Source: a virus
Length of the DNA stretch: 42,503 bases
Virus record (IMG/VR): IMGVR_UViG_3300025655_000077
Coordinates: 1 to 42,503 of that record
Reading direction: 5' to 3' (one strand)
Positions 12,564-42,503 of the stretch are shown here, piece after piece. The notes under the pieces are model-generated. The model was not told the DNA's origin and did not search any database. It saw only the letters and a list, made by a program, of their open reading frames with translations. Position 1 is the stretch's first letter; each line of letters begins with the position of its first letter. Position numbers and translations under genes: made by a program.

Positions 12564-12590
12564 GGGAGAGTTTCGGCTCTCCCTTTTTTT
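12564..12590 (+). terminator. intrinsic terminator after gp32
   Basis: GGGAGAG (12564-12570) and CTCTCCC (12577-12583) form a 7-bp GC-rich stem with a six-base loop, followed by seven T. It closes the plus-strand run and overlaps the stop codon of the convergent minus-strand lysin gene. No T-run follows in the opposite orientation, so it works in one direction. Confidence 0.92.
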
Positions 12591-15500
12591 ATGCTAATGA
12601 ACCTGGTGTTGCTCTGTTGAAATGATAACCTTCAGGCATAAACTTAGACCTACGAAATGCTCTGACTTGAGTGCCAGCTGAATATGAAGTGTCTATCATT
12701 GAAGACTCACGCCACTGCTGATCATCATTCATTACCTGATTCTTTTGTTCTACAGGTTTTTCTTGCTGCTGAGGTTCAGGTTGTTCGGTAGGTGCAGGTG
12801 TAGTATTTCTCTCAACAATATCATCTGCTATTCTTGTCTTGTTAGATACAACTCTTAAGCCTGTTCCATCTGCTCGTATACCACCGTTCAATTCACCTTC
12901 GTTGATTTTAGCTAAAGTATCACCTCGTGCGTTTACAACAGACAGATTGTCTTTTTCTGGTATGAAACCACCGAGAGCCATTTCTGGTGCTTCTTCTTCC
13001 ATTGCCGCTGTTGCAATAGATGCATCTTTTTTCATTTCTTCTGCTATCTGTTTAATTTCTTCAACATTTTCTCTGACTGCTTTTGCCATCACAGAACCTT
13101 CTGGTGTTTTCTTAGGATCCATGAAAGGACGACCATCATCATTCTGTATTTCACCGTGACCGTAAACACTGTTCAAAGCATCTTCTGACATTTTGCCCGT
13201 AGCTATCAGTTCAGCAAGATATTTTCTTGTTGCATCTTGTTTCGCAGCAGAATCAGAACCTATCGTAACAATACCAAGAGCATTTGTATTGTTCAACTCT
13301 GTGCCTATTTCCTTTGATCTTGGTGTATCCGGATCAGAAGTTTTTCGTATTTGATTTGGACGAACATTTTCAGGTCTAATTTGATGAACTTCAGCTTGTT
13401 CTGTGTAAAGGCTTTTTTGACTTTTTGGTAATTTTTTCCATTCTTGTTCAGTTATTTTATTACCGGATTCGTCTTGATATGTAGAAACAATTGCTGTATT
13501 ATAACCAAATGTAGGCGCTCTAGGATCTTCACCCTTTTGTAACTTTTCTAGAGTTAATGATGTTTTGTGAAATACGACTCCAGCAAGTTCTTCTTTACCT
13601 GCCATAGCTTCTTCGCCGCCTGGCAAATTAGGATTAAGAGTGTTAGGAATAATCATAGAGTTAATACTGCTTGATGCTGTTTGTTCAGTTTCTTCTTGTA
13701 CTATTTGAGGACCTTCAAGTTTTCTTTCACCTATATTAGGTTGATTTAAAAGACCTGAATTAAATCCTCCCGCAACGGCAATTCGACGTTGAATTTCTTG
13801 CTGTTCTTTTGATAATCTAAAACCCTCTAAAAGTTTCAAATCATCTAATGTTACAGGTCTATTTCCTATACCGAGAAAATCATTTTCTGCGTCTGCGACA
13901 TAGTTTGGATTAGTAAATCCTTTGCCAAACTGATATGATTGCATATTTTCAGGAGTTACACCATTATGCTTACCTATTCTAAAATCCATCCAATCTGCTG
14001 CACCATATTTGCCTGATTCTAAACCAGAAAAGGCGCCGCCCCATACAAACTCATCATCCAATTCAGGATAAAGTCTTTGTTGAACTTCCCTCATTTTTTC
14101 TGCCCATAAAGCATATATGTTAGCAGATTGTGGAGTTTGATATGATGCAATAGGCACACCAGCTTCATCAAATAACTGAGTATCAACTGCTAATCCTTTT
14201 GCATGTGCGCCATCATTTCTTTTACCAGAAAACAATCTCACTCTCAAAGGAAATTCTTCAGCAGCAATTTTAGCAATTTCAGCAAGTCTAGGATCTACTC
14301 CTTTCATATTTCCTGTTATCTTAAACTGCTCAGAGGAATCTTCATATGAAACTTTTGTGCCACTTGACGATGTTGGCGATTCTAATTCATATGTTTCTTT
14401 GACAAGAGCATTAGCGAACTGCTGTTGTTCTTGCGCTTTCAGTCTTCTACGAATTTCTTCAGGACTTTCATCTGTTGTTCCTGTAGTTGGTGGCTGATAA
14501 GCTTGATGAGTCTTATCTACACTTTCCCAGTGTTTAGCTAGTTGCTCTGGATGTCTTAAAGGTTCAAAGTACGCGGCGCCGCCCCTATATCCACCATATG
14601 TGCCAGCTCCGTTTCCTCTACCTGCAATCGCTCCAGATTTAGGAATAAATTTTTCCCATTGTTTAGCCATTGCTTCAATTTGCACATTAGGATCATAAAC
14701 ATTTCCAGAAACTCCATAACGTTTAAGATCATCCTCTCTAAACTGATACATACCACCTCTGTAACCATTTCCTGGTTTAACATGCAGAGATGATTCTTGT
14801 TTACCTAGTGCAAGAGCGAGTCTAGCCCATTCTTGAGGACTACCTGTTTTAACACCAAATGCTTCACCATCTGATGGCACAAAACCATTCAACGTTGAAT
14901 TTGAAAATCTTTGCACTAAAGCAGCGTATAATTGATCTTGATTAACAAATCCTTTTTTATTAGGTACCAGTCTGTCTACAGGACCTGAAGTTCTGGCTAA
15001 TTTTTTCAAGTCTTCATCACTCATGGTATCATATTTTGATTCCATTCTTTTAATCAGAGTCTTACCTTCTTCTGTTTCGGTTCTTTGTAGTCCTGCATTT
15101 TTCAATTCATCGTCAGAAAGCTTCTGAAGATATTTGACTCTTTTATCATTAGCCAATATACCTGTGCCAATAGAAGAATATATGTTATCAACATCAATAC
15201 CTCTTTTTAGCAAATTCTTTTTCATCTCTTCTAATGTGGGTTGAGGAGTACCGGCAGGTCGTGCTGTAGAAGATGTTTCAGCTTCACCTGTATATCCTGG
15301 TCTAGCGGTGCCTTGATATCCACCTCGTGTTTGATTCCATGACATACCACCGCCAGCCAGTTTCGCTTCAATGTTCTTTGTCACAAAGTTGGAAACATCT
15401 GGTATTGCGTCTCTGTAATAGCTAGGAAAAGCCTTTGCGACTTCAATAGGCGTCAATGAGTTCAGGATCATCTGAATGAAACTGCTATCTGTCTTTGCTG

Positions 15501-15591
15501 CGGTAACTCTGTCTCTCACAGGTATACGGAGCAAATCAGACATTTTGAGTGTGTTTTGTTCGCCAGTTCTAGCTAAAGGATTTACTGCCAT
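12589..15591 (-). CDS. multi-domain tail-associated peptidoglycan hydrolase
   Basis: The protein has 1000 residues. Three enzyme-like regions are visible. The first (about 240-360) is a lytic-transglycosylase type with LALALGKQESSLH (the Glu is the likely acid), GYRGGMYQFREDDL and Gly-rich YGGYRGG. The second (about 430-545) is like M15/VanY peptidases: RLFSGKRNDGAHAKGLAVD, then ADWMDFRIG. The third (about 668-835) is like Amidase_2/PGRP: GVVFHKTS, NTNALGIVTIG and YGHGEIQ with DPKKTPEG. Low-complexity linkers separate them. It would cut glycan strands, peptides and the amide bond during DNA entry. It directly follows the gp26/gp51 chaperone pair, where many phages encode their tape measure, so a combined tape-measure role is possible. 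Confidence 0.72.
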   Translation of the reverse strand: MAVNPLARTGEQNTLKMSDLLRIPVRDRVTAAKTDSSFIQMILNSLTPIEVAKAFPSYYRDAIPDVSNFVTKNIEAKLAGGGMSWNQTRGGYQGTARPGYTGEAETSSTARPAGTPQPTLEEMKKNLLKRGIDVDNIYSSIGTGILANDKRVKYLQKLSDDELKNAGLQRTETEEGKTLIKRMESKYDTMSDEDLKKLARTSGPVDRLVPNKKGFVNQDQLYAALVQRFSNSTLNGFVPSDGEAFGVKTGSPQEWARLALALGKQESSLHVKPGNGYRGGMYQFREDDLKRYGVSGNVYDPNVQIEAMAKQWEKFIPKSGAIAGRGNGAGTYGGYRGGAAYFEPLRHPEQLAKHWESVDKTHQAYQPPTTGTTDESPEEIRRRLKAQEQQQFANALVKETYELESPTSSSGTKVSYEDSSEQFKITGNMKGVDPRLAEIAKIAAEEFPLRVRLFSGKRNDGAHAKGLAVDTQLFDEAGVPIASYQTPQSANIYALWAEKMREVQQRLYPELDDEFVWGGAFSGLESGKYGAADWMDFRIGKHNGVTPENMQSYQFGKGFTNPNYVADAENDFLGIGNRPVTLDDLKLLEGFRLSKEQQEIQRRIAVAGGFNSGLLNQPNIGERKLEGPQIVQEETEQTASSSINSMIIPNTLNPNLPGGEEAMAGKEELAGVVFHKTSLTLEKLQKGEDPRAPTFGYNTAIVSTYQDESGNKITEQEWKKLPKSQKSLYTEQAEVHQIRPENVRPNQIRKTSDPDTPRSKEIGTELNNTNALGIVTIGSDSAAKQDATRKYLAELIATGKMSEDALNSVYGHGEIQNDDGRPFMDPKKTPEGSVMAKAVRENVEEIKQIAEEMKKDASIATAAMEEEAPEMALGGFIPEKDNLSVVNARGDTLAKINEGELNGGIRADGTGLRVVSNKTRIADDIVERNTTPAPTEQPEPQQQEKPVEQKNQVMNDDQQWRESSMIDTSYSAGTQVRAFRRSKFMPEGYHFNRATPGSLA

Positions 15592-15593
15592 TT

Positions 15594-15803
15594 CTATCTT
15601 CTCTTAATAACTCTTGCTTTGTTTGCTGCTTCTTGGTCGCGTCTTTCTTCTTCTTTTCTCTTCAAATGTTCAGACAACAAGTCAATGTATATGAACTTTT
15701 CCCAAGGCATCATATTTTCAAGTTCAGCTAGTGAGTATTTGTGAAACTGAACCATAGAGAACATAGTCTTATAGAAGTTTCGGATGTCATCATAGCTGAA
15801 CAT
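15594..15803 (-). CDS. 51: gp51-like baseplate hub/tail assembly chaperone
   Basis: The protein has 69 residues: a helical start (YDDIRNFYKTMFSMVQFHKYSLAELENMMPWEKFIYID, read in parts) and a very charged tail (KRKEEERRDQEAANKARVIKRR). The ELENMMPWEKFIY-type block is typical of the downstream member of tail assembly chaperone pairs. T4 gp51 is a longer hub assembly protein at the same map position. The ATG shares one base with the upstream stop (TAATG). It can also be made as a -1 frameshift extension of gp26. Confidence 0.62.
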   Translation of the reverse strand: MFSYDDIRNFYKTMFSMVQFHKYSLAELENMMPWEKFIYIDLLSEHLKRKEEERRDQEAANKARVIKRR

Positions 15804-16525
15804 TACTGAAAAAAACTTACGAAATCATTATACCTCACTGAATGTGTCTTGCCACATTTTGTGCAATTGCCACTACCGATAACTTCAAAGTATGGAAAGT
15901 TCTTTGTGAACTCTTCAAGCTTCATAAACTGTTCGTTTGTCAGACTTTCAACAAGACTTGCCATCTCATCTGGTGTCATATCTTTGCTGGTATAATACTG
16001 CCCTTTTGTAAAGACACGCTCAATACATGCAGCTACGATCTTGATTGTCTTTTCTATGCTTGTGTCTTTCTCGGTTATAGACTTGATGACAGAGTATGAC
16101 GGATATTTCATTCGGAAAATCAGATCATCATTGAACGCTATATCCATTTCTATGCTATCGTCTTTGACAACAGCAATATTGGAAATGTCTAAGTCTACCT
16201 TGAACTTGCCACCACATTCAATTCCGTCAGTCTTAGTCAGACACACATATCCAACGCTGATCTTTTCTCCGACAGATTTTGCTCTGAGAGCGATGAACAG
16301 ATAATCCACATCAAAGAATGGCAGAGTATCAATGTTCACATCTTTGGAAATCAAGCAATTATTGATGACTTGCTTTGTCGTTTTGATTATTTCCTGTGCA
16401 TCATCTGTACTGACAGCCATCAATAGCAGCTTCTCTTCTTTTACCAGAAACGGTCTGACTTTAACTTCTTTTCCGTTTGAGGGTAGTTTCAAATCATATG
16501 TTGGTACATCAATTGTAGGTATCAT
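15803..16525 (-). CDS. 26: gp26-like baseplate hub assembly protein
   Basis: The protein has 240 residues (T4: 208) and matches the T4 baseplate protein family: LKLPSNGKEVKVRPFLVKEEKLLLMA, then repeated Ile/Val-rich segments and TIKIVAACIERVF. Four Cys residues (95, 104, 221, 224), two of them as CTKC near the C-terminus, could form a zinc site. In T4 it helps assemble the hub. The last codons, AGT TTT TTT CAG, hold a slippery site in -1 register with gp51. AGAGG precedes the start. Confidence 0.8.
   Translation of the reverse strand: MIPTIDVPTYDLKLPSNGKEVKVRPFLVKEEKLLLMAVSTDDAQEIIKTTKQVINNCLISKDVNIDTLPFFDVDYLFIALRAKSVGEKISVGYVCLTKTDGIECGGKFKVDLDISNIAVVKDDSIEMDIAFNDDLIFRMKYPSYSVIKSITEKDTSIEKTIKIVAACIERVFTKGQYYTSKDMTPDEMASLVESLTNEQFMKLEEFTKNFPYFEVIGSGNCTKCGKTHSVRYNDFVSFFQ
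15809..15815 (-). other. predicted -1 ribosomal frameshift site (T TTT TTT)
   Basis: On the minus strand the gp26 frame reads AGT TTT TTT CAG TAA. The seven T have the X XXY YYZ phasing. Slipping back one base continues TCA GTA ATG TTC, that is, straight into gp51 in frame. The product would be gp26 residues 1-239, then Ser-Val, then all 69 residues of gp51 (about 310 residues). No strong downstream stem-loop is obvious by eye. Confidence 0.6.
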
Positions 16526-16542
16526 AAAATATCCTCTGATAA

Positions 16543-17259
16543 TTATCTAATAAAACTGATAGGTGTTCTCTTACCGCCTTGAGCAGTGCTGACAATATTT
16601 TGCTTGCCGTCAACAAAAGTATTGCCTGATGCTGCTGGTTCTTTATCACGACCAACTCTCAGCCACTTGAAGTATGTGAATGTCACTGCAAGTCTCTGAT
16701 ACTGATCGTCAGCCCATGTCATTGGCTGCGGATTGACATTGACTGGATATGCTTTTCTCAGTGTAATACGATATGTTTCTTTTGCATTACCGGTACCACC
16801 GGTTTGAGGAAGACCTTGATTAGGATCAGTATCATATTCTCCTTCATACTCTGTTATCTGTCTTATCTGAATGTCAGTTGCATATTCATCTCTGAACTTG
16901 AAATCAAAGCTGTTTGTCGGATTGATATATTCCATCCAATCATCAAAGAATTTTCTCTCGCGCGATTCGGAACGACACAAAAAAGTCATTGTAGTGTCTT
17001 CATATTGTGTCTGATATGGCAACTTATGACTTGGACCATAGTATCTTGCGTCTACAGACATAAAAGCACGACCAGGCATTTCAGCAGCTTCGCATAGATA
17101 TACAAGTTCACTTCCCATCGTAGCCCAATTGTCTAATAGCCCAATCGGAATATTGATAAAAACAGCAAATCTAGCAGACTTGGCCAGACCGCCGTAATCA
17201 CCCATATTAGATAATGCAGCAGGCATACCCAGATTGGTTAATTTATTGGATAAATCCAT
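16543..17259 (-). CDS. 54: gp54-like baseplate tail-tube initiator
   Basis: The protein has 238 residues with the gp19/gp54 tube-like fold pattern: ARFAVFINIPIG, CEAAEMPGRAFMSVDARYYGP, LPYQTQYEDTTMTFLCRS, then a long beta region ending VTFTYFKWLRVG. In T4, gp54 and gp48 sit on the hub and start polymerisation of the gp19 tail tube. T4 gp54 has 320 residues, so this one is short. The main tube protein gp19 has the same fold, but placement inside the baseplate block and the partner gp48 across the divergent junction favour gp54. Confidence 0.78.
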   Translation of the reverse strand: MDLSNKLTNLGMPAALSNMGDYGGLAKSARFAVFINIPIGLLDNWATMGSELVYLCEAAEMPGRAFMSVDARYYGPSHKLPYQTQYEDTTMTFLCRSESRERKFFDDWMEYINPTNSFDFKFRDEYATDIQIRQITEYEGEYDTDPNQGLPQTGGTGNAKETYRITLRKAYPVNVNPQPMTWADDQYQRLAVTFTYFKWLRVGRDKEPAASGNTFVDGKQNIVSTAQGGKRTPISFIR

Positions 17260-17263
17260 TTTC

Positions 17264-17770
17264 TTATGTCTTTCTAATGAATAGTTCTAGTGATAGTTGG
17301 GAAGCTTTGTCCCATTCTGTAGCTGGTATTTCAATAAATTTGGAACGAACATGCCCATACAAGTATCGTTTTACTGTAGGTCCTATGATAGACTTGACGT
17401 TTCTGGTAGAACTCAACAAATCATATGATATTTGCAATCTGGTTCTAGCAGTATAGTTTCTTGCGGTAGCATACTCTTGCAATCTGTTCAGCAAATTCAT
17501 TCTTTGATCAGGATCAAGATAGTGAATATTAAGACCGAGAAAACCGTCATTGTATTGTTCTATAGGAAATACCATCGGATAAACATCATAGACAGGAAGC
17601 TTGTCTTTCGTCTTGGGATCATACTTGAAAAAGAACATACGCCCAATAGTCGTGGTACCACGCTGTTGCCCTTCCATCTGCATCATACGATTACGCATGG
17701 AAGAAGCAGATCGTGCTTTTTCTGTCATCCAGTCAAATAGTTCTTTTGGTGTGTATCTTTTTATAGCCAT
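17264..17770 (-). CDS. 2: probable gp2-like DNA end protector / head completion protein
   Basis: The protein has 168 residues. The central block FFKYDPKTKDKLPVYDVYPMV, then DGFLGLNIHYLDP, is a strong and recognisable signature. The C-terminal block RYLYGHVRSKFIEIPATEWDKA also matches proteins I recall as DNA end protector (gp2) in T4-like phages. The neighbouring gp4 supports this: in T4, genes 2 and 4 are adjacent and both act in head completion. T4 gp2 is longer (274 residues). There is no Shine-Dalgarno sequence. A late box lies five bases from the ATG, so the mRNA may be leaderless. Another structural role is possible. Confidence 0.55.
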   Translation of the reverse strand: MAIKRYTPKELFDWMTEKARSASSMRNRMMQMEGQQRGTTTIGRMFFFKYDPKTKDKLPVYDVYPMVFPIEQYNDGFLGLNIHYLDPDQRMNLLNRLQEYATARNYTARTRLQISYDLLSSTRNVKSIIGPTVKRYLYGHVRSKFIEIPATEWDKASQLSLELFIRKT

Positions 17771-17850: not shown

Positions 17851-18285
17851 TTATATACCTAATTCATCTTCAGTGATTAGACGAAACGACCAACCTCTAT
17901 CAAGACAGTATTCAGTGGCTGACTTCCACTTAGCTTGATTCCTACCCCAAGTCATTACCTCAGTGATATACTGCTTAGTTATACGCTTTTTCTTCTTAGG
18001 TTCCCTTGTCTCTTTCTTAGGTTTGACTTCCCATAGCATGGTTTGAATACTTCCATCTTTCATTCTTGCTTTGACAAGAAAGTCTGGAAAATATCTGTGA
18101 CGCTTATTATCTGTTGGGCATATGTAAGGTATAGCAATTTCTTCACTGCTCCATTCTAAAACAGCGGTATTATCATCTAAATATTTCATAACTCTGAGTT
18201 CCCACAACGAACGATAAATGATGTTCGTGGGATCACCTTTGTATTTTTGGTAGTTTTTGGGTGAGAATTTGCCTTTGTATGCCAT
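17851..18285 (-). CDS. 4: gp4-like head completion nuclease-fold protein
   Basis: The protein has 144 residues (T4 gp4: 150), starting MAYKGKFSPKNYQKYKG. Conserved blocks are YRSLWELRVMKYLD, then HRYFPDFLVKARMKDG and LWEVKPKKE. Together they give the E...D...E-x-K arrangement of a PD-(D/E)XK-like fold seen in the gp4 (gp50) head completion family. It acts after DNA packaging, when the neck is attached. The frame is open 53 codons further upstream, but that part would overlap the divergent gp48 gene, so I start at 18285. Confidence 0.87.
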   Translation of the reverse strand: MAYKGKFSPKNYQKYKGDPTNIIYRSLWELRVMKYLDDNTAVLEWSSEEIAIPYICPTDNKRHRYFPDFLVKARMKDGSIQTMLWEVKPKKETREPKKKKRITKQYITEVMTWGRNQAKWKSATEYCLDRGWSFRLITEDELGI

Positions 18286-18292
18286 ATAAATA
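18285..18292 (+). promoter_or_regulatory. T4-type late promoter box (TATAAATA) for gp48 onward
   Basis: This is a perfect match to the T4 late consensus. It lies in the 34-base gap between the divergent gp4 and gp48 genes. The start would be near 18298, with AGGAA in the leader before the ATG at 18320. It probably drives gp48, gp53, gp27 and the gp5 genes. Confidence 0.8.
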
Positions 18293-18319
18293 TATAGAAA
18301 ACAATTACAGGAACTAAAA

Positions 18320-19315
18320 ATGGCTTTACCGATTTTTCCTCTAGTTTTAGGAGGTGCTGCATTAGCAAGATACTTTGAAGAAGATATTTTTCGTGGTCTT
18401 ACTGATGCTAGTGGTGATCTTGAACAAACGAGATATGACTTCAATTACAGAGTTTTTCCAAGTGATTTAGGCGAAGAAGATAACGATCATTATATGATTA
18501 TCAATATTAATATTCCATATAGCGGTTTGTCTGGCGGTCCATTAGGTTCAACTGCAATTGTTGAGGCTCTTACTACAGGTACAGAAACTGGCGACTTTTC
18601 AAAAGTTGATTTGTTGAGATTTGGTAATGATCCGTCACTCGGTGGATTCTTAGGTGATCTTTTATCAGGTGATAAGACAGCTCTTTACAGAGGAACAAAA
18701 AGAATAGCTGAGTCTATTGCTCTCCATATGCCTAACGGCGGTCTTGTTTACACGGAAGACAATAAATATGAAGAGGTATCTATGACTGCAATGGCAGGTT
18801 CTTTTATTTCTGGTGTAGCAGGTGTAATAGATAGCGCGTTAGGAACTAATGGTGCGCTAACAAAAGTTGTTGATGGTATAGGTAGCGCAGTCACTACTGG
18901 CGCTAAACTGGCTGGTTATCCTATCAATCCGCAGGTTGAGGTTCTCTTTGCGACAAGACCTATGAGAGAATGGATGTTTGAAGTTTTACTTGCACCAAGA
19001 AATGAAAAAGAGAGCGAAACTGTGCGTGAAATCATCAGAACAATGAGACTGTATTCAGCACCAGAGTTGACTGGTGCAGGTTTCTTTCTTATTCCTCCAG
19101 CGGAATTTGACATTACATTCTATCGTGCAGGCAAAGAAAATGAATACCTGCCACGCATCAATACATGCGTTCTGAAGAGATTTGAAGTAGACTATGCACC
19201 AGCAGAAGGCAAATACAGCACATTTAGCACAGGTGCGCCAGTCGTTGTTCGTATGAGTATGAATTTCCAAGAAGTAGAGATGCTCCACAAGAAGAGAGTT
19301 GCACAAGGATTCTAA
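18320..19315 (+). CDS. 48: gp48-like baseplate tail-tube cap protein
   Basis: The protein has 331 residues (T4: 364). The N-terminus is membrane-like and Gly/Ala-rich (LPIFPLVLGGAALARYF), as in gp48 proteins. The C-terminal half carries VEVLFATRPMREWMFEVLLAPRNEKE, then FLIPPAEFDITFY and LKRFEVDYAPAEG, which is the tube-like domain. With gp54 it forms the platform on the hub for tail-tube growth. A perfect late promoter and an AGGAA element precede it, and the stop overlaps the gp53 start. Confidence 0.88.
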   Translation: MALPIFPLVLGGAALARYFEEDIFRGLTDASGDLEQTRYDFNYRVFPSDLGEEDNDHYMIININIPYSGLSGGPLGSTAIVEALTTGTETGDFSKVDLLRFGNDPSLGGFLGDLLSGDKTALYRGTKRIAESIALHMPNGGLVYTEDNKYEEVSMTAMAGSFISGVAGVIDSALGTNGALTKVVDGIGSAVTTGAKLAGYPINPQVEVLFATRPMREWMFEVLLAPRNEKESETVREIIRTMRLYSAPELTGAGFFLIPPAEFDITFYRAGKENEYLPRINTCVLKRFEVDYAPAEGKYSTFSTGAPVVVRMSMNFQEVEMLHKKRVAQGF

Positions 19316-22766: not shown

Positions 22767-23639
22767 ATGCCACCGTCAGACTACAAGAAAGATCAGAAAA
22801 AAACAGTCGATAAATGGGATACACCACCCGATCAAAGAGCAGTTGAAGGAGCTGGAACATATCCAAATCAAACAGTATTCAAGTCAAGAGGAGGTTCTGG
22901 TTGGTCTGTAGACGATAGTGAGGGTGCTGAGTCAATGACATTGTTTCATCGGTCAGGCACAAGATTACAGTTTGGCACAGATGGACACTTTTCTATCACA
23001 GCACACAACGGGCAGTATACCGTTGTTTTTGGAGAAAACCGTATGCTCGTTACAGGCGCACAGGATGTGACTGTTCAAGGTGGAGGTTCTCTCAGAGTGG
23101 AAGGCGACTATAATATGACTGTAATGGGTAATCACAATACCACTGTAAATGGTGATATGAATCTTACAGCAAAGAATTTTAATGCTGAAGTTCGCGGAGA
23201 CATGGATCTTTCAGCAAAGAGTCTGACAATGAAGATGGAAGGTTCCGCTGAAATTTCATCACACGGTATTACATCTATCGCAGGTGATGGTGGATTATCT
23301 CTTACATCAACGCAACAGAGTGTAGCAATCGGTGCATCTAAAGATGTTGCAATCAACTCAAAGGGTGGTAAAACCATGATTGAGGCTGGTACAAGTTTAG
23401 ATATGCGTTCAGAAGATGCTATGGCAATTGAATCGAGAAATGGTGAAATGGCTATAAAATCTGCTGACCTTCTAGCATTGTCAACAGCATCTGATCTTAC
23501 ATTGAAAAGTAGTGCTACTGTTGGCATAGACGGTGGTCCTAAAATTCGTATGAATGAAGGTTTAGCAAAACAAGCAACAGGTGCAAGAAAAGCTATTGCT
23601 ATACTACCTAAACCAACTAATCCAAATAGAGAATCATAA
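22767..23639 (+). CDS. gp5 C-terminal-like spike/needle protein
   Basis: The protein has 290 residues. The start (DTPPDQRAVEGAGTYPNQ and GSGWSVDDSEG) leads to FHRSGTRLQFGTDGHFSI. Long repeats of the type V-x-G-x-x-x-x-V-x-G follow: LRVEGDYNMTVMGNHNTTVNGDMNL, and later MKMEGSAEISSHG. This is the pattern of the trimeric beta-helix needle of T4 gp5 and VgrG spikes. It pierces the outer membrane. It ends KPTNPNRES with no visible metal-binding tip motif. GAGG precedes the ATG. Confidence 0.85.
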   Translation: MPPSDYKKDQKKTVDKWDTPPDQRAVEGAGTYPNQTVFKSRGGSGWSVDDSEGAESMTLFHRSGTRLQFGTDGHFSITAHNGQYTVVFGENRMLVTGAQDVTVQGGGSLRVEGDYNMTVMGNHNTTVNGDMNLTAKNFNAEVRGDMDLSAKSLTMKMEGSAEISSHGITSIAGDGGLSLTSTQQSVAIGASKDVAINSKGGKTMIEAGTSLDMRSEDAMAIESRNGEMAIKSADLLALSTASDLTLKSSATVGIDGGPKIRMNEGLAKQATGARKAIAILPKPTNPNRES

Positions 23640-29908: not shown

Positions 29909-32900
29909 ATGGCAAATACAGCCAATGGAACAGTGCTAACTACCGATTTCAATGTTTCACCATACTATGATAATTATGATGAATCAAAGCAGTTTTATCG
30001 TATTCTCTACAAGCCGGGCTACGCTGTGCAAGCCCGCGAACTTACACAGATGCAGACAATCATTCAGAAGCAGATTGAAAGATTTGGTAAGCATATATTT
30101 AAAGATGGCTCTATCGTTCTTCCTGGTGAATTCTCAATTGAAACTGATCTAGACTATGTAAAGATCAAAGACAATGATAATTCCAATAATGCAGTAACTG
30201 TAAATGATCTTCTGAATACAACTCTAACTGGTGCAACAAACAACATCAAAGCATATGTTGTCAATGTTCTTAATGGTACAGATACTTCCTCAAATACAAA
30301 AACTCTTTATATTCGCTATCAAACTGGTTCAACTGTCAATACAGATATAAAAGTATTTCAAACAAATGAAGTTCTTACATCAAATTCTGGCGTAAATCCT
30401 GTTGCTCTCTCTTCCTCAGCAACAGGTAAAGCGGCAAGATTTCTAATTCGTGAAGGTGTCATATTTGCAAAGCAGCACTTTATCTATTTCCCAACTCAGT
30501 CAATAATTATTAGCAGATATTCATCAGATGCAAATTGCCGTGTAGGATTCAATATTGATGAACAAATTATATCAAGCACACAAGACGCATCTCTTCTTGA
30601 TCCTGCACTTGAGGCATCTAACTATTCTGCACCTGGTGCTGACAGACTAAAGCTTGTTCCAACTCTTGAAGTTCGTTCAATAGACGATACTACAACAGGT
30701 CCAAACTTTGTTGAACTGTTCACTATTCAAAACGGCGTTGTTACTGAAAAGTACGAAAGACCTATTTACAATATTCTTCAAGATGAAATGGCCAAGAGAA
30801 CATACGACGAATCCGGTGACTATTATGTTCGTGGTTTGACAGTTCGTGTTCGTGAAAATCTTGATACAGGAACAAATGATGGTTTGTCAAATACAGGTAA
30901 CAGTCAGTTGCTTTCTGTAGGTGTTGAACCAGGATTGGCATATGTTAAAGGATATGAGATTGAAAAGCTTGTAACAGACTATATCAATATAGATAAAGCC
31001 AACTTCTATCAGAATGCAACAAGTCAGATTGGTACAGCTACAATGGGTAGCTATATTGTTGTTAACGAACTTTCTGGTTCTCTTGTTGCTGACAAAGGAT
31101 CTAAGATATCTCTTTATGATACAGCAGCTAAAACAATTACAAACAGAACATCAAGCAATACTCCTGCAGGAAATGTAATTGGTACTGCTTACATTACAGC
31201 AGTAGAATATAATACTGGATCACTAGGTACAGCAAACGCTAGTATGGTACTATATCTCCATGACATTCGTATGCTTGGATCAAATACATTCAGTTCAGCA
31301 AAAACAATTTTCTTGAATAACGGATCATCAAGAGCAAATGTTGTCGGTGATATTGTCTTAAACGCAAACAATGCAGTTCTAAATGATGTATCACAAGCCA
31401 CATTGCTTTATCCTGTTGGTTCTCTTGCAACAAAGACAGTAAGAGATTCATCAGGTCAACCATCATTCCAGTTTAACTTCTTGCGTTCTCAGGACGTTTC
31501 TATCACAGGCGCAACTGGTGTACTGTCATATACACTGGCAACATCTGGTTCACCAGACAATGAAGTGTTCCCATATGGAACAACAACATTAGGTGATTCT
31601 GATAAGCGTGAAATCTTCTTGACATTCAATGAAGACATTACTGTAAGTGATTCTGTAGCTGGCACTGCAAACTCAAATACAGGCAGTGGATTTAATGTCT
31701 ATCTAACAGGTACTGGAACTCAGTTTACAAGATTCAATGTTGGTGACAAGATTGTACTTTCAGGAAACACAGAGTTCTTTACTATCTCGTCAATCATCAG
31801 CGATTCATCATTAACAACTGTACAGACATTACCTGAAAATCTAACAGGTAATACAATCACTAAAGTTTACAAGAAAGGCGACTTTATTGATCTGACAGGA
31901 AAAGGTCTAACAGCAGGCGCAGAAAGATCAGTGTCTACAACACCTACTGCACTGACAATTGATCTGAAAGAAACATTCCCTAGCGATATCAGCGCAACAA
32001 TCACAACTCAAGCTGTAAGAACAGGTGCACCTGCACAGGAAATTCAAAAGACACTTGTTCCTTCTATCTTTGTAAAGATCAACTGTGCAAACTCTGTTGC
32101 CGGTACTACTGGTCCATATTCGCTTGGTATTCCAGACGTTTATCAGATTCGCAGTATTCGTAAAAAGTCTAATGACTATCCTACAAGCACAACAGATGGT
32201 ACAGATGTAAAAGCACAGTTTGTGTTTGATAATGGTCAAAAAGATTCGTTCTATGATCACGCAACAATAACACCGATAACTGTTCTTTCATCTACCGATA
32301 GACTTCTTGTTGAGTTGGATTATTTCAATCCTGTATACTCATCAGGTAGAGGTTATTTCACAATCGACTCTTATCCTATAAATGATAGCATAACATCAAA
32401 TACAACAATAAGAACAGAAAATATTCCAATCTTCACTTCACCAAGAAGTAAGTTGATCTATGATCTCCGTAATCATATCGATATCAGACCTATAAAGTCT
32501 GCTACAGCAAACACTGGAGCTGTGTCAGTTGCGGGTGCAAGTGTGAATCCTGCTGTCTCTGATGGTTATAACTTCGAAACAAATGGTATGAGATTGTTCG
32601 CACCAGCCACTCAGTTCACATATGATTTCTCTTATTATCTTCCAAGAAGAGATTTGATTGTGATGGACAAGAGTGGATTTGTAACAAACATAAAGGGTAC
32701 TCCTTCAGTATTTCCTGTTACACCTACAACACCAGAAAACTCTATGTCTCTTGCGTCTATCTTTATTCCACCATATCCTTCTCTTGCTCCAAACTATGGC
32801 AAAAAGATTGGTAGAACAGATCAAGCATGTGTTGTAAAGAAACTCTCTAACATTCGCTTTACCATGAGAGATATTGGTGTTCTAAAGCAAAGAATTGAAA

Positions 32901-35900
32901 ATGTGGAATATTACGCAAGCTTGAGTCTTCTTGAAAAGCAAGCCGCTGAACTAAAGATTCTAGATGAAAATGGTTTAGAGCGTTTCAAGAATGGTATCTT
33001 CGTAGATACATTCAGCAGTCATGCTTTGGGTGATACAAGAAATCCAAACTATCGTATCGTTGTAGATCCGACTGAAAAGACAATCAGACCATACTATACA
33101 ATGAACTCTATTGGTTATGACTTTACGCCATCATCAAATACAAATATTCGTAAGACTGGTGATCTTTTGACAATGAATTATACCGAAGTTCCATTCATTG
33201 AGCAAAATAGAGTTACATCATTCCGAAATGTTGAGTTGACAAGCTATCGCTTCTTGGGTGAAGTATTCTTGAAGCCAGATACAGACGTTTGGGTTGACAC
33301 AGAATATGCACCAGATGAACATATCACAGTGGGCGGTGATCTACCAACACAGAACACAACAACAACCGAATCGCTTGGTGTTGAGTGGGGCGAGTGGAAT
33401 ACAGTATGGAACAGTTGGCAAAGTCAGATTGTAGGTTATGAAGCTTACAACTCTAACGGACAACTTGTGGGTAGTTATCAAACACTATCTGAAGCACAAA
33501 GACCGTTTGACAATGACTATGGATTTATTCTAGCAACAGCGAATACAACCGTTATTTCAGGAACAGGTACAGCAACAGGTGTACAAAATTCAAATTATAC
33601 CAAAGTAACAAATGTTGTTGTAAATGGAAGATTCTATTCGACATATCAGTTATCTAAAGGTGATGGACTTATCTATGCTATCACTGCTGGTGGTCAAACA
33701 GGTATCAGCACTAGAACTGGTTCAGAAACATTTGCTACTACAACAACAGAAGCGACTGAAACATCTGAACAGATTGGCACAAAAGTTCTTGATGTTGGCT
33801 TGATACCATATATCAGACCTCAGTCAATCTTTATAAACGTCAAAGGTCTAAAACCATCTACTCAGGTATATGTTTTCTTTGATAATGAACCAATGTCAGA
33901 GTATTCTAGAGCCATATCGCAGAACACATATGATGCATCATTTACAAATGCTTTTGTTGTGAATGTTTCTGATTATGGAACAGATATCGAAACTGATTCT
34001 AATGGTGATGCATACATTGAACTTCGCTTGCCATCAACAAAGAGATTCCGTGTTGGCACAAAAGAAGTTGTTATTACCGATAGTCCAACAAACTCTATTG
34101 ATGCTTCAACAAAAGCAACTGGATACTTTGTTGCACATGGTCTTGTTCAGCAGAAGCAAAATACTATTCTGACAACAAGAAACTATACAACAACTACAAC
34201 ATACACAACTGTTTCTGTAACAGACAGTAAAGATGTTGCTAATACAACAACAGGAAAAACTTTCGTTGGATTTGTGGATGACGCTTCATGCTCTGCATAC
34301 TCATTTATTCCTCAAGTTCCACTTGGTGAAGAAGGCGTCTTCATGACTTCTGTTGACTTGTTCTTCAAAGACAAGCATCCAACATATGGTGTTTGGGTAG
34401 AAATTCGTGAGATGGATACTGCTGGTGGTATTACTCGTAATCAAGTTCCATTCTCTGAGGTATGGTTGACGCCAGCAGATATGAATATCAGTGATGATGC
34501 TTCACTTGCCACAAACATCAAGTTCCCTTCACCTGTATTCTTGTATGCTGATACTCAGTATGCCTTCGTCATTCACACAGTTGCTATCAATCCAGACACA
34601 TACATCTGGGTAGCAAGACTTGGTGAGACAGACATCAAGACTGGAAATCAGTATACATCACGACCATTGAGTGGTACATTCTATACAACAAACAATAATC
34701 TGAACTGGAATATTGTTGACGATCTAGACTTGTATATCAAGTTCTATAGAGCGCAGTTCTCTACAGGAACTGGTACAGCACACATTGGCAACAAGCAGAT
34801 GGAACAGATTGCACTTTCAAATGGTTCATCTTATCTATCAAGCTTGGGTCAACCATTTGTTGGTCGCTACAGAATGACTCTGACAGGTAATACATCAAAC
34901 ATCTCTGTTGGCGATTATCTGATTGGCGCAAACTCTGGTGCTAATGCTGCTGTTCTTGCAGCAAGTGGATCATTGTTTACTGTATCTAATACACAATTCT
35001 TGACAAATGAAGTTCTTACAATTTATGATGCTACTGTTGTATCTAAAGCACAAACTTCTGTAATTACCAATATTGATTCAGCAAGTGGTATTCTGAGAAG
35101 ATATAAAGACAGAGGCAGTACTGATCTAGCTATTGCTGAATTTGAGAGTTCAAATGGTAAGTTTATTATCAATGATGTTATGACAGGTCTTGATAGTGGC
35201 GATACATTTACAGTTACAGGTATCAAGAATATGAGATATGCTGTTGCTGACTTTGAACCATCATTCTTGCGCTTCAACAAAACATCAATTGATTTTGAGA
35301 TGAAGACGGCAGCAAATGCCAGCCCATATACAATGAGTGATTTCATTTCGATCAAAGACAATGAAAACATCTACTTCACATCTGAAAGAGCAATTCTTTC
35401 AAGAACAAATGAAGTTTCTGCTGGTCAAGTGTCTAACAACGTCAAGATCACAATGACAAGTACATCTCAGTATGTTTCACCTGTTGTTGACATGGCAAGA
35501 ACACACACAATCTATGTTGACAATCTAATCAATGCTAACACATACAAAGAAGATGCGACTGGTGTGACACTTGTTCTTTCTGGAAATACAGCAAATATCA
35601 GTATCAGTGATGTATTGATTGGTGCAACTTCAGGAGCAAATACAGTAGTTTCATTCATATCTGGTAACAACATAACAGTTGTTCCTACAGTAAATACAAA
35701 GTTCTCTGTAAATGAAACTGTTACAATATATGATGCTAATGTTGTTGCTAAGGGTAGCAATACTTCAAACATCACAAGCATTGTATATGACAACAAGAAA
35801 CCTGGAGGTCTTCTTATCAACAAGTACATCTCTGTTCCTATCACACTTGCTGAAGGTCAAGATGCTGAAGACTTGATCGTTATGTTAACATCATATCGTC

Positions 35901-36226
35901 CACCTGGAACAGATGTAAAAGTATATGTAAAGATATTGAATGGTGAAGATGGACAAGCATTTGACTATCTACCATGGATCGAAATGGAAACATCAGAAAA
36001 TGCTCCGTACTCATCAATCTCAAACATCAATGACTTCATTGAATATACATACAGGTTCCCTGTTGCTCAAAGAACAGGACCAAATGATGAAGTTCAGTAT
36101 ACAAATTCTGACGGAATAACATTTACTGGCTTCAAGTACTATGCAGTAAAGATTGGTCTTGTTGGTAGCAATGCTGCTGTTGTTCCGAGAGTAGGTGATC
36201 TTCGTGTGATAGCCGTACAAATCTAA
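29909..36226 (+). CDS. very large baseplate/fibre-network structural protein (DUF4815-like N-terminus)
   Basis: The protein has 2105 residues. The first 400 residues match a family I recall as DUF4815 in cyanophage-like virions: DESKQFYRILYKPGYAVQARELTQMQ, IERFGKHIFKDGS, EPGLAYVKGYEIEKL. A central helical stretch (RFTMRDIGVLKQRIENVEYYASLSLLEKQA) is followed by beta-rich, Thr/Asn-rich segments. Two paralogous segments near the C-terminus share the pattern TGNTSNISVGDYLIGANSGAN (nt about 34870-35070 and 35560-35790). It likely replaces T4 gp10/gp11-type wedge periphery and anchors fibres. Asn/Thr-rich codons resemble the neighbouring fibre genes. Confidence 0.75.
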   Translation: MANTANGTVLTTDFNVSPYYDNYDESKQFYRILYKPGYAVQARELTQMQTIIQKQIERFGKHIFKDGSIVLPGEFSIETDLDYVKIKDNDNSNNAVTVNDLLNTTLTGATNNIKAYVVNVLNGTDTSSNTKTLYIRYQTGSTVNTDIKVFQTNEVLTSNSGVNPVALSSSATGKAARFLIREGVIFAKQHFIYFPTQSIIISRYSSDANCRVGFNIDEQIISSTQDASLLDPALEASNYSAPGADRLKLVPTLEVRSIDDTTTGPNFVELFTIQNGVVTEKYERPIYNILQDEMAKRTYDESGDYYVRGLTVRVRENLDTGTNDGLSNTGNSQLLSVGVEPGLAYVKGYEIEKLVTDYINIDKANFYQNATSQIGTATMGSYIVVNELSGSLVADKGSKISLYDTAAKTITNRTSSNTPAGNVIGTAYITAVEYNTGSLGTANASMVLYLHDIRMLGSNTFSSAKTIFLNNGSSRANVVGDIVLNANNAVLNDVSQATLLYPVGSLATKTVRDSSGQPSFQFNFLRSQDVSITGATGVLSYTLATSGSPDNEVFPYGTTTLGDSDKREIFLTFNEDITVSDSVAGTANSNTGSGFNVYLTGTGTQFTRFNVGDKIVLSGNTEFFTISSIISDSSLTTVQTLPENLTGNTITKVYKKGDFIDLTGKGLTAGAERSVSTTPTALTIDLKETFPSDISATITTQAVRTGAPAQEIQKTLVPSIFVKINCANSVAGTTGPYSLGIPDVYQIRSIRKKSNDYPTSTTDGTDVKAQFVFDNGQKDSFYDHATITPITVLSSTDRLLVELDYFNPVYSSGRGYFTIDSYPINDSITSNTTIRTENIPIFTSPRSKLIYDLRNHIDIRPIKSATANTGAVSVAGASVNPAVSDGYNFETNGMRLFAPATQFTYDFSYYLPRRDLIVMDKSGFVTNIKGTPSVFPVTPTTPENSMSLASIFIPPYPSLAPNYGKKIGRTDQACVVKKLSNIRFTMRDIGVLKQRIENVEYYASLSLLEKQAAELKILDENGLERFKNGIFVDTFSSHALGDTRNPNYRIVVDPTEKTIRPYYTMNSIGYDFTPSSNTNIRKTGDLLTMNYTEVPFIEQNRVTSFRNVELTSYRFLGEVFLKPDTDVWVDTEYAPDEHITVGGDLPTQNTTTTESLGVEWGEWNTVWNSWQSQIVGYEAYNSNGQLVGSYQTLSEAQRPFDNDYGFILATANTTVISGTGTATGVQNSNYTKVTNVVVNGRFYSTYQLSKGDGLIYAITAGGQTGISTRTGSETFATTTTEATETSEQIGTKVLDVGLIPYIRPQSIFINVKGLKPSTQVYVFFDNEPMSEYSRAISQNTYDASFTNAFVVNVSDYGTDIETDSNGDAYIELRLPSTKRFRVGTKEVVITDSPTNSIDASTKATGYFVAHGLVQQKQNTILTTRNYTTTTTYTTVSVTDSKDVANTTTGKTFVGFVDDASCSAYSFIPQVPLGEEGVFMTSVDLFFKDKHPTYGVWVEIREMDTAGGITRNQVPFSEVWLTPADMNISDDASLATNIKFPSPVFLYADTQYAFVIHTVAINPDTYIWVARLGETDIKTGNQYTSRPLSGTFYTTNNNLNWNIVDDLDLYIKFYRAQFSTGTGTAHIGNKQMEQIALSNGSSYLSSLGQPFVGRYRMTLTGNTSNISVGDYLIGANSGANAAVLAASGSLFTVSNTQFLTNEVLTIYDATVVSKAQTSVITNIDSASGILRRYKDRGSTDLAIAEFESSNGKFIINDVMTGLDSGDTFTVTGIKNMRYAVADFEPSFLRFNKTSIDFEMKTAANASPYTMSDFISIKDNENIYFTSERAILSRTNEVSAGQVSNNVKITMTSTSQYVSPVVDMARTHTIYVDNLINANTYKEDATGVTLVLSGNTANISISDVLIGATSGANTVVSFISGNNITVVPTVNTKFSVNETVTIYDANVVAKGSNTSNITSIVYDNKKPGGLLINKYISVPITLAEGQDAEDLIVMLTSYRPPGTDVKVYVKILNGEDGQAFDYLPWIEMETSENAPYSSISNINDFIEYTYRFPVAQRTGPNDEVQYTNSDGITFTGFKYYAVKIGLVGSNAAVVPRVGDLRVIAVQI

Positions 36227-41181: not shown

Positions 41182-41670
41182 ATGAGTGAGAAATATATTA
41201 ATGCATACATTGATTCCGCTGTTGGAATCATACATGAAAACTTGAATACAATATTGCAGTTGAAAGCTCAGTTGCGTGTGACAAACGAACTACTAGGTGA
41301 AAAAGATAGTGTTATCAACAGTCAAATTGCTGAAAAAGATAACACTATCAATTTACTTTCTTCTGAACTATCAAGTTTAAAAAGTCGATCTGTTGATGTT
41401 GAAGAATTGAAAAAGAATGCTAAGTATTGGGAAGATTCATACCATGCAATAAATAACAAAGTTGCACATATGGAAACTCTTACAAAGCAGTACAATGATT
41501 TGAAATCTCAATTTTTTACTGTGAATGAAGAGTTAAAACTTACAAAATTGAAAATTGAAGAATTTGAGACTGTAAGTAAAACTCCTAAAAAGACACTAAA
41601 TATTAAAAACTCTGTACAAACTAACAAAGTTGAAGATAAAAGAAAAGAAATTTTAATAGATGACTTTTAA
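41182..41670 (+). CDS. coiled-coil protein, possible fibre chaperone
   Basis: The protein has 162 residues, nearly all helical with heptads: NLNTILQLKAQLRVTNELLGEKD, INLLSSELSSLKSRSVDVEELKKN, then TKQYNDLKSQFFTVNEELKLTKLKIEEF. The last 30 residues are Lys-rich. It lies between two fibre genes with a GGAG-supported start, and its stop overlaps the next ATG. Position and structure suggest a fibre chaperone or stiff connector, but no homology is claimed. Confidence 0.65.
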   Translation: MSEKYINAYIDSAVGIIHENLNTILQLKAQLRVTNELLGEKDSVINSQIAEKDNTINLLSSELSSLKSRSVDVEELKKNAKYWEDSYHAINNKVAHMETLTKQYNDLKSQFFTVNEELKLTKLKIEEFETVSKTPKKTLNIKNSVQTNKVEDKRKEILIDDF

Positions 41671-42503
41671 TGTCTAACACAGTAATAACTCTTAAAAAAT
41701 CAGCAATACCTGGTTCAGAGCCAACTTCACTTGCAAACGGCGAGTTGGCTATTAACTATGCTGATGGTAAACTGTATTATAAGAGTAACACAGGTATAAT
41801 CAAATCATTCGTATCTGATTTGCCTCCTCAAGCTGATGCATTTGGAACAGTTAATGCAGCAGGAACTCTTATTGTTGCAGATACTTCGGGAGATGTTCTT
41901 AATCTTTTACCTGGTAATAATATTCAAATTACAGGTGACGCTCTTAATGATTCCATAACAATTTCAGCTATTCTAACTGATGGCGCACAAGGTACAACTG
42001 GCGCGCAGGGTATACAAGGTCCTCAGGGAACAACTGGTACACAAGGTGCTACTGGTACTCAAGGTGCTACTGGTACACAAGGTACTCAAGGCGTTCAAGG
42101 TACTACTGGCGCGCAGGGTACTACAGGTACTCAAGGTGCAACCGGAACTCAAGGTACGACAGGTGATACAGGTTCACAGGGTATAACTGGATCAACTGGT
42201 AGTCAGGGTACAACAGGAAGTCAAGGTTCTACAGGTACTCAAGGAACGACAGGATCTCAAGGAACGACAGGATCACAAGGCACAACAGGAAGTCAAGGTT
42301 CTACAGGTACCACAGGTTCTCAAGGCGCCACTGGATCAACTGGTAGTCAGGGTACAACTGGATCTCAGGGTACTACAGGATCAACTGGTTCTCAAGGCAC
42401 TACTGGATCAACTGGTAGTCAGGGTACAACAGGAAGTCAAGGTTCTACAGGTACTCAAGGCACAACTGGATCTCAAGGAACGACAGGATCACAAGGCACA
42501 ACT
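41670..42503 (+). CDS. collagen-like tail fibre (3' end beyond window)
   Basis: An ATG overlapping the previous stop (TAATG) opens a frame that stays open for 278 codons to the window edge. Residues 1-50 are an adaptor: VITLKKSAIPGSEPTSLANGELAINYADGKLYYK (in parts), close to the adaptor at 37639. Residues 55-103 form a small beta domain (LIVADTSGDVLNLLPGNN). From about residue 105 it is an unbroken Gly-X-Y run (GAQGTTGAQGIQGPQG, then GTT/GSQ/GAT/GTQ units). Proline is almost absent; Thr, Ser and Gln take the X and Y positions, as in bacterial and phage collagens. A receptor-binding tip should follow outside the window. Confidence 0.85.
   Translation, partial: MSNTVITLKKSAIPGSEPTSLANGELAINYADGKLYYKSNTGIIKSFVSDLPPQADAFGTVNAAGTLIVADTSGDVLNLLPGNNIQITGDALNDSITISAILTDGAQGTTGAQGIQGPQGTTGTQGATGTQGATGTQGTQGVQGTTGAQGTTGTQGATGTQGTTGDTGSQGITGSTGSQGTTGSQGSTGTQGTTGSQGTTGSQGTTGSQGSTGTTGSQGATGSTGSQGTTGSQGTTGSTGSQGTTGSTGSQGTTGSQGSTGTQGTTGSQGTTGSQGTT
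41983..42503 (+). repeat. collagen-like Gly-X-Y coding repeats
   Basis: At least 57 consecutive nine-base units encode Gly-X-Y. Longer DNA units also recur: blocks around ACAGGAAGTCAAGGTTCTAC appear near 42208, 42286 and 42429 with few changes. The tract is prone to length change by slippage or recombination. Confidence 0.85.

Follow-up and report, generated by a model that had tools for sequence, protein, structure and literature searches.

We propose that an open reading frame (ORF) of 1000 codons in the IMG/VR virus record IMGVR_UViG_3300025655_000077 codes for a tail lysin carried in the virion of an uncultured T4-like phage, with conserved ends and swappable hydrolase cassettes between them, and we consider this reading probable. 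The window, by which we mean the whole stretch analyzed (positions 1-42,503 of the record, 42.5 kb, with T4-type genes), carries the ORF as a complete frame on its minus strand, from ATG to stop at 12589-15591, after genes of the gp26 and gp51 types. A preliminary description of this DNA had the coordinates and this neighborhood right, and it read three kinds of hydrolase in the one chain. That claim is real but overstated: an M15 fold and homology to the Amidase_2 domain are supported, and the third, transglycosylase part is plausible but suggestive only. The parts of the protein are listed here.

12589-15591, minus strand: probable modular tail lysin, whole ORF (1000 aa; complete frame; family and slot evidence)
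15262-15591, minus strand: N-terminal region conserved in the family, residues 1-110 (modeled as helical; matches across the family)
14953-15240, minus strand: second shared region, residues 118-213, without assigned function (blastp identity to relatives)
14482-14889, minus strand: transglycosylase-like stretch, residues 235-370, with Glu266; suggestive only (PF06737 below its cut-off; hhalign E 0.009)
13957-14379, minus strand: M15-fold domain, residues 405-545 (structure matches; alignment; hhalign E 1e-22)
13027-13659, minus strand: Amidase_2-like domain, residues 645-855 (blastp to L093 and L007; hhalign E 5e-9)
12589-12996, minus strand: C-terminal region, residues 866-1000 (identity to relatives)

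Hydrolase-like domains within the ORF

The M15 fold of residues 405-545 is supported by structure as well as by alignment. M15 peptidases head the list of structure matches for the AlphaFold2 (AF2) model of the whole lysin: LysECD7 (8q2g, Z 8.5, 104 residues aligned at an rmsd of 3.4), ChiX (5opz, Z 8.4), T5 (2mxz, Z 7.2) and RB49 (23ri, Z 6.7), at about residues 421-543. The model is uneven there, with block means of AF2 confidence (pLDDT) of 56-88 over residues 421-520 and 37 at 521-530. Compared with the domains of relatives aligned without the window, the stretch gave an hhalign E of 1e-22, and none of 60 shuffles scored as high. With these four L-Ala-D-Glu peptidases the domain shares both the fold and the His463/Asp470 motif (HAKGLAVD, His-x6-Asp), and Asp533 is also kept; it differs from them in having Asp536 for the third zinc His and in sitting inside a large tail protein. 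All five aligned relatives have His at this position (DxMH) where the window has DWMD, and ADWMDFRIG, listed in the preliminary description under the M15/VanY type, is not an intact M15 motif. Because Asp536 stands in place of the third zinc-binding His, the activity of the domain is in doubt, and we do not assign it as an active M15 peptidase.

Among 50,697 records of named phages, only the M15 part of the ORF is recognizable. It matches five records, from rhizobial and mesorhizobial phages (34-38% identity in the best piece), and in four of the five the match falls in an annotated tape measure. Scans of viral contigs with the M15 or amidase region alone returned only the window's own contig.

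Residues 645-855 match L007 and L093-L095, relatives described below (blastp E 2e-12 for L007 and 1e-13 for L093). The L007 domain is PF01510 (E 3e-13, 50.7 bits against a cut-off of 26 when the region was scanned by itself); on the window protein this model is not over its cut-off, and only the relatives' domain passes. Against an alignment of these domains from relatives, made with the window left out, the hhalign E of the stretch was 5e-9, a score equaled by none of 60 shuffles. His675 and His812, the presumed zinc ligands of the amidase, are invariant in all three aligned rows; a third ligand could not be placed with confidence, and the window domain carries an insertion of about 28 residues relative to those rows. 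Judged from sequence, homology of this region to the Amidase_2 domain of the relatives is well supported.

The case for a transglycosylase-like stretch at residues 235-370 is suggestive. When this region was scanned by itself, PF06737 scored 13.6 bits (E 0.11), where its cut-off is 27, and in the profile search of the window protein neither PF06737 nor PF01464 was over its cut-off. Against relatives aligned without the window, hhalign gave an E of 0.009, the best of 18 overlapping segments, with none of 60 shuffles as high; with two rows only, the E was 0.078 and two of 60 shuffles reached the score. We discounted an hhalign E of 4e-6 as circular, the window having been inside the target alignment. 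The motif pair of lytic transglycosylases, a catalytic Glu within an ES motif ahead of a G..Q motif, is present: Glu266-Ser267 is followed by GGMYQF, and the E-S, G and Q columns are common to all four aligned relatives, in an alignment made with the window included. In pairwise comparisons the score of the stretch was reached by 9 of 300 shuffles for L109, 17 for L090, 19 for L118 and 33 for L087; nothing was obtained for L092, L096, L105, L104, L088 or a second L109 region. Searches of the family with blastp and phmmer found no match, tblastn in phages gave only matches at E 7, in sheath proteins, and the structure list of the whole model held no lysozyme row. AF2 of these residues alone had a pLDDT of 43, and this model was not used.

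The motifs quoted in the preliminary description are all in place (E266 in KQESS, MYQF at 281-284, H463-D470 in HAKGLAVD, DWMD at 533-536, H675 in FHK, H812 in GHGEIQ and MDP at 824-826). Its claim survives a search for the folds, two of the three being supported and the third plausible, and survives in part a check of the catalytic residues: His463, Asp470, Asp533, His675 and His812 are kept, the third M15 zinc ligand is Asp rather than His, and the third amidase ligand could not be placed with confidence.

Searched as a whole against Pfam, PHROGs and the sequences of the PDB, the protein returned no hydrolase, and profile searches matched no lysozyme-family, gp5 or spike model. Matches to KRAB, NOD2_WH and TFAM we regard as chance. 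Overall confidence in the AF2 model is low (mean pLDDT 50), and many globular domains are joined in it by low-confidence linkers; Foldseek found no match to it at E ≤ 0.001, and its VIA-align list held no lysozyme or Amidase_2 entry, which does not exclude either.

Shared ends and variable middles

The protein belongs to a family whose members, designated here by L numbers, were first found as neighbors of gp26; an alignment of these relatives then served for a further scan, which returned 36 loci, one of them the window's own sequence. For the family itself no Pfam or PHROGs model was matched, and its complete members measure 668-1293 aa. With the N-terminal region, every one of the 35 family rows gives a match (E ≤ 0.004), 45-116 residues long. 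The second shared region is 36-39% identical to L087 and L088/L089, with weaker similarity to L006/L112, and the C-terminal region is 49% identical to L087 and 29% to L090/L003, weaker in others, and clear in the closest relatives.

Between these common ends the middle varies, and the hydrolases it holds differ from member to member. Among 17 members scanned at E ≤ 0.1, Phage_lysozyme2 was matched in six, Peptidase_M15_4 in four, Transglycosylas in three, and M23, Amidase_2, SLT and GDSL in one each; in the same scan the window protein matched none of the hydrolase models. L087, the nearest relative, combines Phage_lysozyme2 (E 1e-22) with an M15-like region reading DLMH and with SGNH-type motifs. 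L087 carries several hydrolase types, and a chain with more than one hydrolase is therefore not peculiar to the window protein; several hydrolases in one tail protein appears to be a habit of this family and slot.

Further motifs were observed in individual members. SGNH/GDSL-type motifs occur at residues 598-695 of L087, 640-734 of L090 and 637-731 of L003 in the order GTND, then YHP or DGYHP, then GDSI, and in L006 they follow the usual order, GDSI, GTND, DGVH; read as motifs only, the order in the first three suggests a circular permutation. L109 has an SLT domain at residues 221-309 (E 2e-8) and an ACGV motif near residue 440, which resembles a CHAP-type cysteine site, and it is possibly another multi-enzyme member. 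In L108 (1293 aa) an SSGCL motif at residue 829 resembles the sites of L,D-transpeptidases; at E ≤ 0.05 no Pfam model matched L108. Among named phages, none was matched by the N-terminal region of L105.

The slot after gp26 and gp51

The gene occupies a constant position. It starts two bases past the stop of the gp51-like ORF, which is itself preceded by gp26, in a minus-strand series of T4-type genes, with a spike gene on the other strand.

15594-15803, minus strand: gp51-like small ORF, 69 aa, MPWEKFIYIDLL (position; motif upstream of family genes)
15803-16525, minus strand: gp26-like hub assembly protein (PF12322, E 4e-54)
16543-17259, minus strand: tail tube gene
17264-17770, minus strand: gp2-like gene
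within 17851-18444, minus strand: gp4-like gene
22767-23639, plus strand: gp5-like spike, 290 aa (spike-type models only)

The 69-aa ORF had no Pfam match, and its gp51 label is tentative, from its position and an apparent similarity. Of the 35 family loci examined, four had too little sequence upstream; in all 31 with at least 1100 bases, gp26 lies directly upstream, its match ending 200-233 bases before the gene, and in 30 of these a small frame with a PWE motif stands between the two. Many of these contigs are near-identical, and the independent cases are fewer than these counts.

Hydrolases also occur in this slot outside the family. From 65 loci tried we collected 56 gp26-neighbor proteins, each the longest frame starting no more than 900 bases after the gp26 match; rows sharing their first 80 residues were dropped, L003, L006 and L007 were set aside as family, and the proteins, some cut by contig ends, were not individually checked. 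At E ≤ 0.01 this set gave 15 model-to-protein hydrolase matches, in at most 15 of the 56 proteins (SLT 4, Phage_lysozyme2 3, Phage_lysozyme 2, and six others 1 each). In eight isolated cyanophages we located 15 slot genes; nine of the encoded proteins were scanned, one being incomplete, and every one of the nine matched a hydrolase model (E ≤ 0.01). The tough or modified host wall invoked in the preliminary description is unneeded as an explanation, because hydrolases occur in all nine of these cyanophage proteins.

Like the window protein, S-PM2 p207/p208, S-SCSM1 ORF213/214 and S-CREM2 gp208/gp209 are large, follow gp26-gp51 and carry hydrolase domains. S-PM2 and S-SCSM1 have two adjacent slot genes, over which glycosidase and peptidase are split, where the window has one. 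Mass spectrometry (MS) by others detected ORF213/214 in virion preparations of S-SCSM1 (PMC9602691) and ORF208/209 in virions of S-CREM2, with 73 and 71 unique peptides (PMC10665884). By analogy with these proteins, the lysin would be present in the virion. As its sequence showed no similarity to the proteins in the slot of S-CREM2 or S-N03, this analogy is one of position and of domain type. In S-PM2 p207 (L123 2280-5780), an ADP-ribosyltransferase model (PF01129, E 1e-5, just over the cut-off) was also matched at residues 66-220, close to the N-terminus and ahead of the tail lysozyme domain.

Proposed function and alternatives

We hypothesize that the conserved ends fix the lysin in the tail, either in the hub or inside the tube, gp26 and gp51 serving as chaperones for its assembly, and that the exchangeable peptidoglycan hydrolase cassettes sit between these ends. 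Upon tail contraction the lysin would most likely leave through the hub and make a small local hole in the wall. The amidase-like domain would cut the bond between sugar and peptide. Cleavage of the stem peptide would fall to the M15-fold domain, provided that this is still active, and cleavage of the glycan to residues 235-370, provided that they truly are a transglycosylase. Gene 5 of T4 encodes the tail lysozyme, described as the only known enzyme of the particle (PMC3004832). The lysin would share with T4 gp5 the proposed role of opening the wall at entry; unlike gp5, it has no spike parts in its chain, and the gp5-like gene is separate. The lysin would do the job of gp5 in T4 because this phage's gp5-like spike (22767-23639) shows no lysozyme domain, no lysozyme model having matched it.

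Several results weigh against a tail lysin of this kind. On the ORF no Pfam hydrolase model reaches its own cut-off; PF06737, PF01464, PF01510, PF13539 (M15_4) and PF18013, each searched singly in the window record, gave nothing at E ≤ 10; and the third M15 zinc ligand is changed, as described above. Nor is the window protein detectably similar in sequence to the slot proteins of S-CREM2 or S-N03. The authors of S-CREM2 class ORF208/209 as endolysins, perhaps inside the capsid (PMC10665884), and those of S-SCSM1 allow that ORF213/214 may merely have been carried over in suspension after purification (PMC9602691).

Two alternatives were weighed. In the first, a reduced tail lysin, the amidase-like domain alone is active, the M15 fold has become non-catalytic and perhaps serves to bind peptidoglycan, and the stretch 235-370 is no enzyme. 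This would account for the replacement by Asp536 of a His kept in five of five relatives and for transglycosylase evidence that lies under every cut-off. However, Asp can bind zinc, His463, Asp470 and Asp533 are kept, and Glu266 aligns with the Glu-Ser of all four relatives (the window being part of that alignment); we regard this version as rather unlikely. That the ORF encodes instead an endolysin, which would release progeny when infection ends, and no tail protein, seems to us very improbable. Its domain types do overlap with those of endolysins, and that term was used for the S-CREM2 slot proteins (PMC10665884), but the gene slot adjoins hub genes in 31 of 31 loci, complete members reach 668-1293 aa with common ends that hold no enzymes, and the counterparts in S-SCSM1 and S-CREM2 were detected in virions by MS (PMC9602691 and PMC10665884).

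Possible role as a tape measure

The most substantial alternative includes the tail lysin and adds tail-length control to it: the ORF would be the tape measure, the functional counterpart of T4 gp29, and also carry lysin domains. The preliminary description had raised such a link from the position of the gene, which does follow the gp26- and gp51-like ORFs, that is, the hub chaperones. PMC3004832 describes the gene products of the T4 hub and gives gp29 as the tape measure of that phage, and a review reports tape measures bearing lysin domains in T5 and TM4.

Slot ORF lengths support this idea. Tail lengths stated in PMC10665884 are 418 nm for S-CREM2, 138 nm for S-N03, 129 nm for S-H34 and 140-170 nm for S-CRM01; the corresponding slot ORFs are of 1565 and 1456 aa in S-CREM2, 933 and 722 in S-N03, 936 and 735 in S-H34, and a single one of 864 in S-CRM01. 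Between S-CREM2 (bases 57,400-172,000) and S-N03 (whole) there are 59 reciprocal best pairs of ORFs of at least 150 aa, antisense shadow frames included, and only the two slot pairs reach a length ratio of 1.5 (1565/933 = 1.68; 1456/722 = 2.02). The next-highest ratios belong to shadow frames (1.48 and 1.37), and among large baseplate genes the next is at 1.18. Growth of this kind would be expected of a tape measure. Read by eye, the added length in S-CREM2 is mainly Ser/Thr/Asn-rich sequence in gp208 and repeats of about 13 residues in gp209; the latter (L128 9185-13552) form a long run of the FQQSMGSVAPAGG type that is absent from the shorter S-N03 counterpart. The nearest named relatives of the M15 domain point the same way, four of the five records placing it in annotated tape measures.

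Against this, S-CREM2 and S-N03 are a single phage pair, the growth of their slot ORFs is smaller than the threefold difference in tail length, and the window protein has no detectable similarity to either. Tape-measure proteins commonly contain a hydrophobic segment. None was found in the window protein, whose best 19-residue Kyte-Doolittle mean is 0.95, or in any complete family member, the best mean among them all being 1.09; three of the four S-CREM2 and S-N03 slot proteins reach 1.8-2.1. No tape-measure Pfam model matched the window protein, in which globular domains and linkers of low confidence abound, and the window is a fragment beyond which another tape measure may lie. Because the window protein lacks both a hydrophobic segment and detectable resemblance to its S-CREM2 and S-N03 counterparts, we do not file the ORF as a tape measure and keep this reading as a strong rival, with a chance a little short of even; the suggested link thus gained support from the slot ORF lengths and the M15 matches and is not proven for the window phage.

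Stated more broadly, and tentatively, the gene after gp26-gp51 may be the unrecognized tape measure of marine T4-like phages, which in this family would also be a multi-enzyme lysin whose cassettes are exchanged between phages while its ends stay fixed. In other words, one gene would set both tail length and wall specificity. T5 pb2, TM4 Tmp and the tape measures of rhizobial phages resemble the window protein in having a hydrolase within a large tail protein. They differ from it in that two or three hydrolase types are proposed in its one chain, a comparison drawn for T5 and TM4 from their description in a review. A literature search at the level of titles and abstract openings found neither this slot named as a tape measure nor a three-hydrolase tail protein, which does not prove their absence; the literature covered also includes PMC6116005, PMC10194240 and PMC6145125.

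Implications and other features of the window

Tail lysins and lysin-bearing tape measures are already known. A tail chain with two or three bond specificities, whose middle is exchanged among relatives, would be a natural source of matched enzymes for entry into aquatic bacteria. Should the slot also be the tape measure, T4-like cyanophages would gain a counterpart of gp29, unnamed in the papers cited, and the identity of the genes that grew in the phage with a 418-nm tail would be explained. Both points are testable in isolated cyanophages.

The plus strand of the window carries gp59-like and gp32-like genes, followed at some distance by those of the gp48, gp53, gp5, gp25, gp6, gp7 and gp8 types; the T4 names are in part assigned from PHROG product names. 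The plus-strand frame at 4076-4915 matches the S-adenosylmethionine lyase model PF23780 (E 2e-8, over the cut-off) and is likely a counter-defense or metabolic gene. A tail-fiber or collagen-like gene at 41670-42503 (plus strand) is cut by the end of the record, and the frame at 29909-36226 (plus strand) encodes a protein of 2105 aa with PHROG 358 and DUF4815, with homologues of 2476-2668 aa in S-N03 and S-CREM2.

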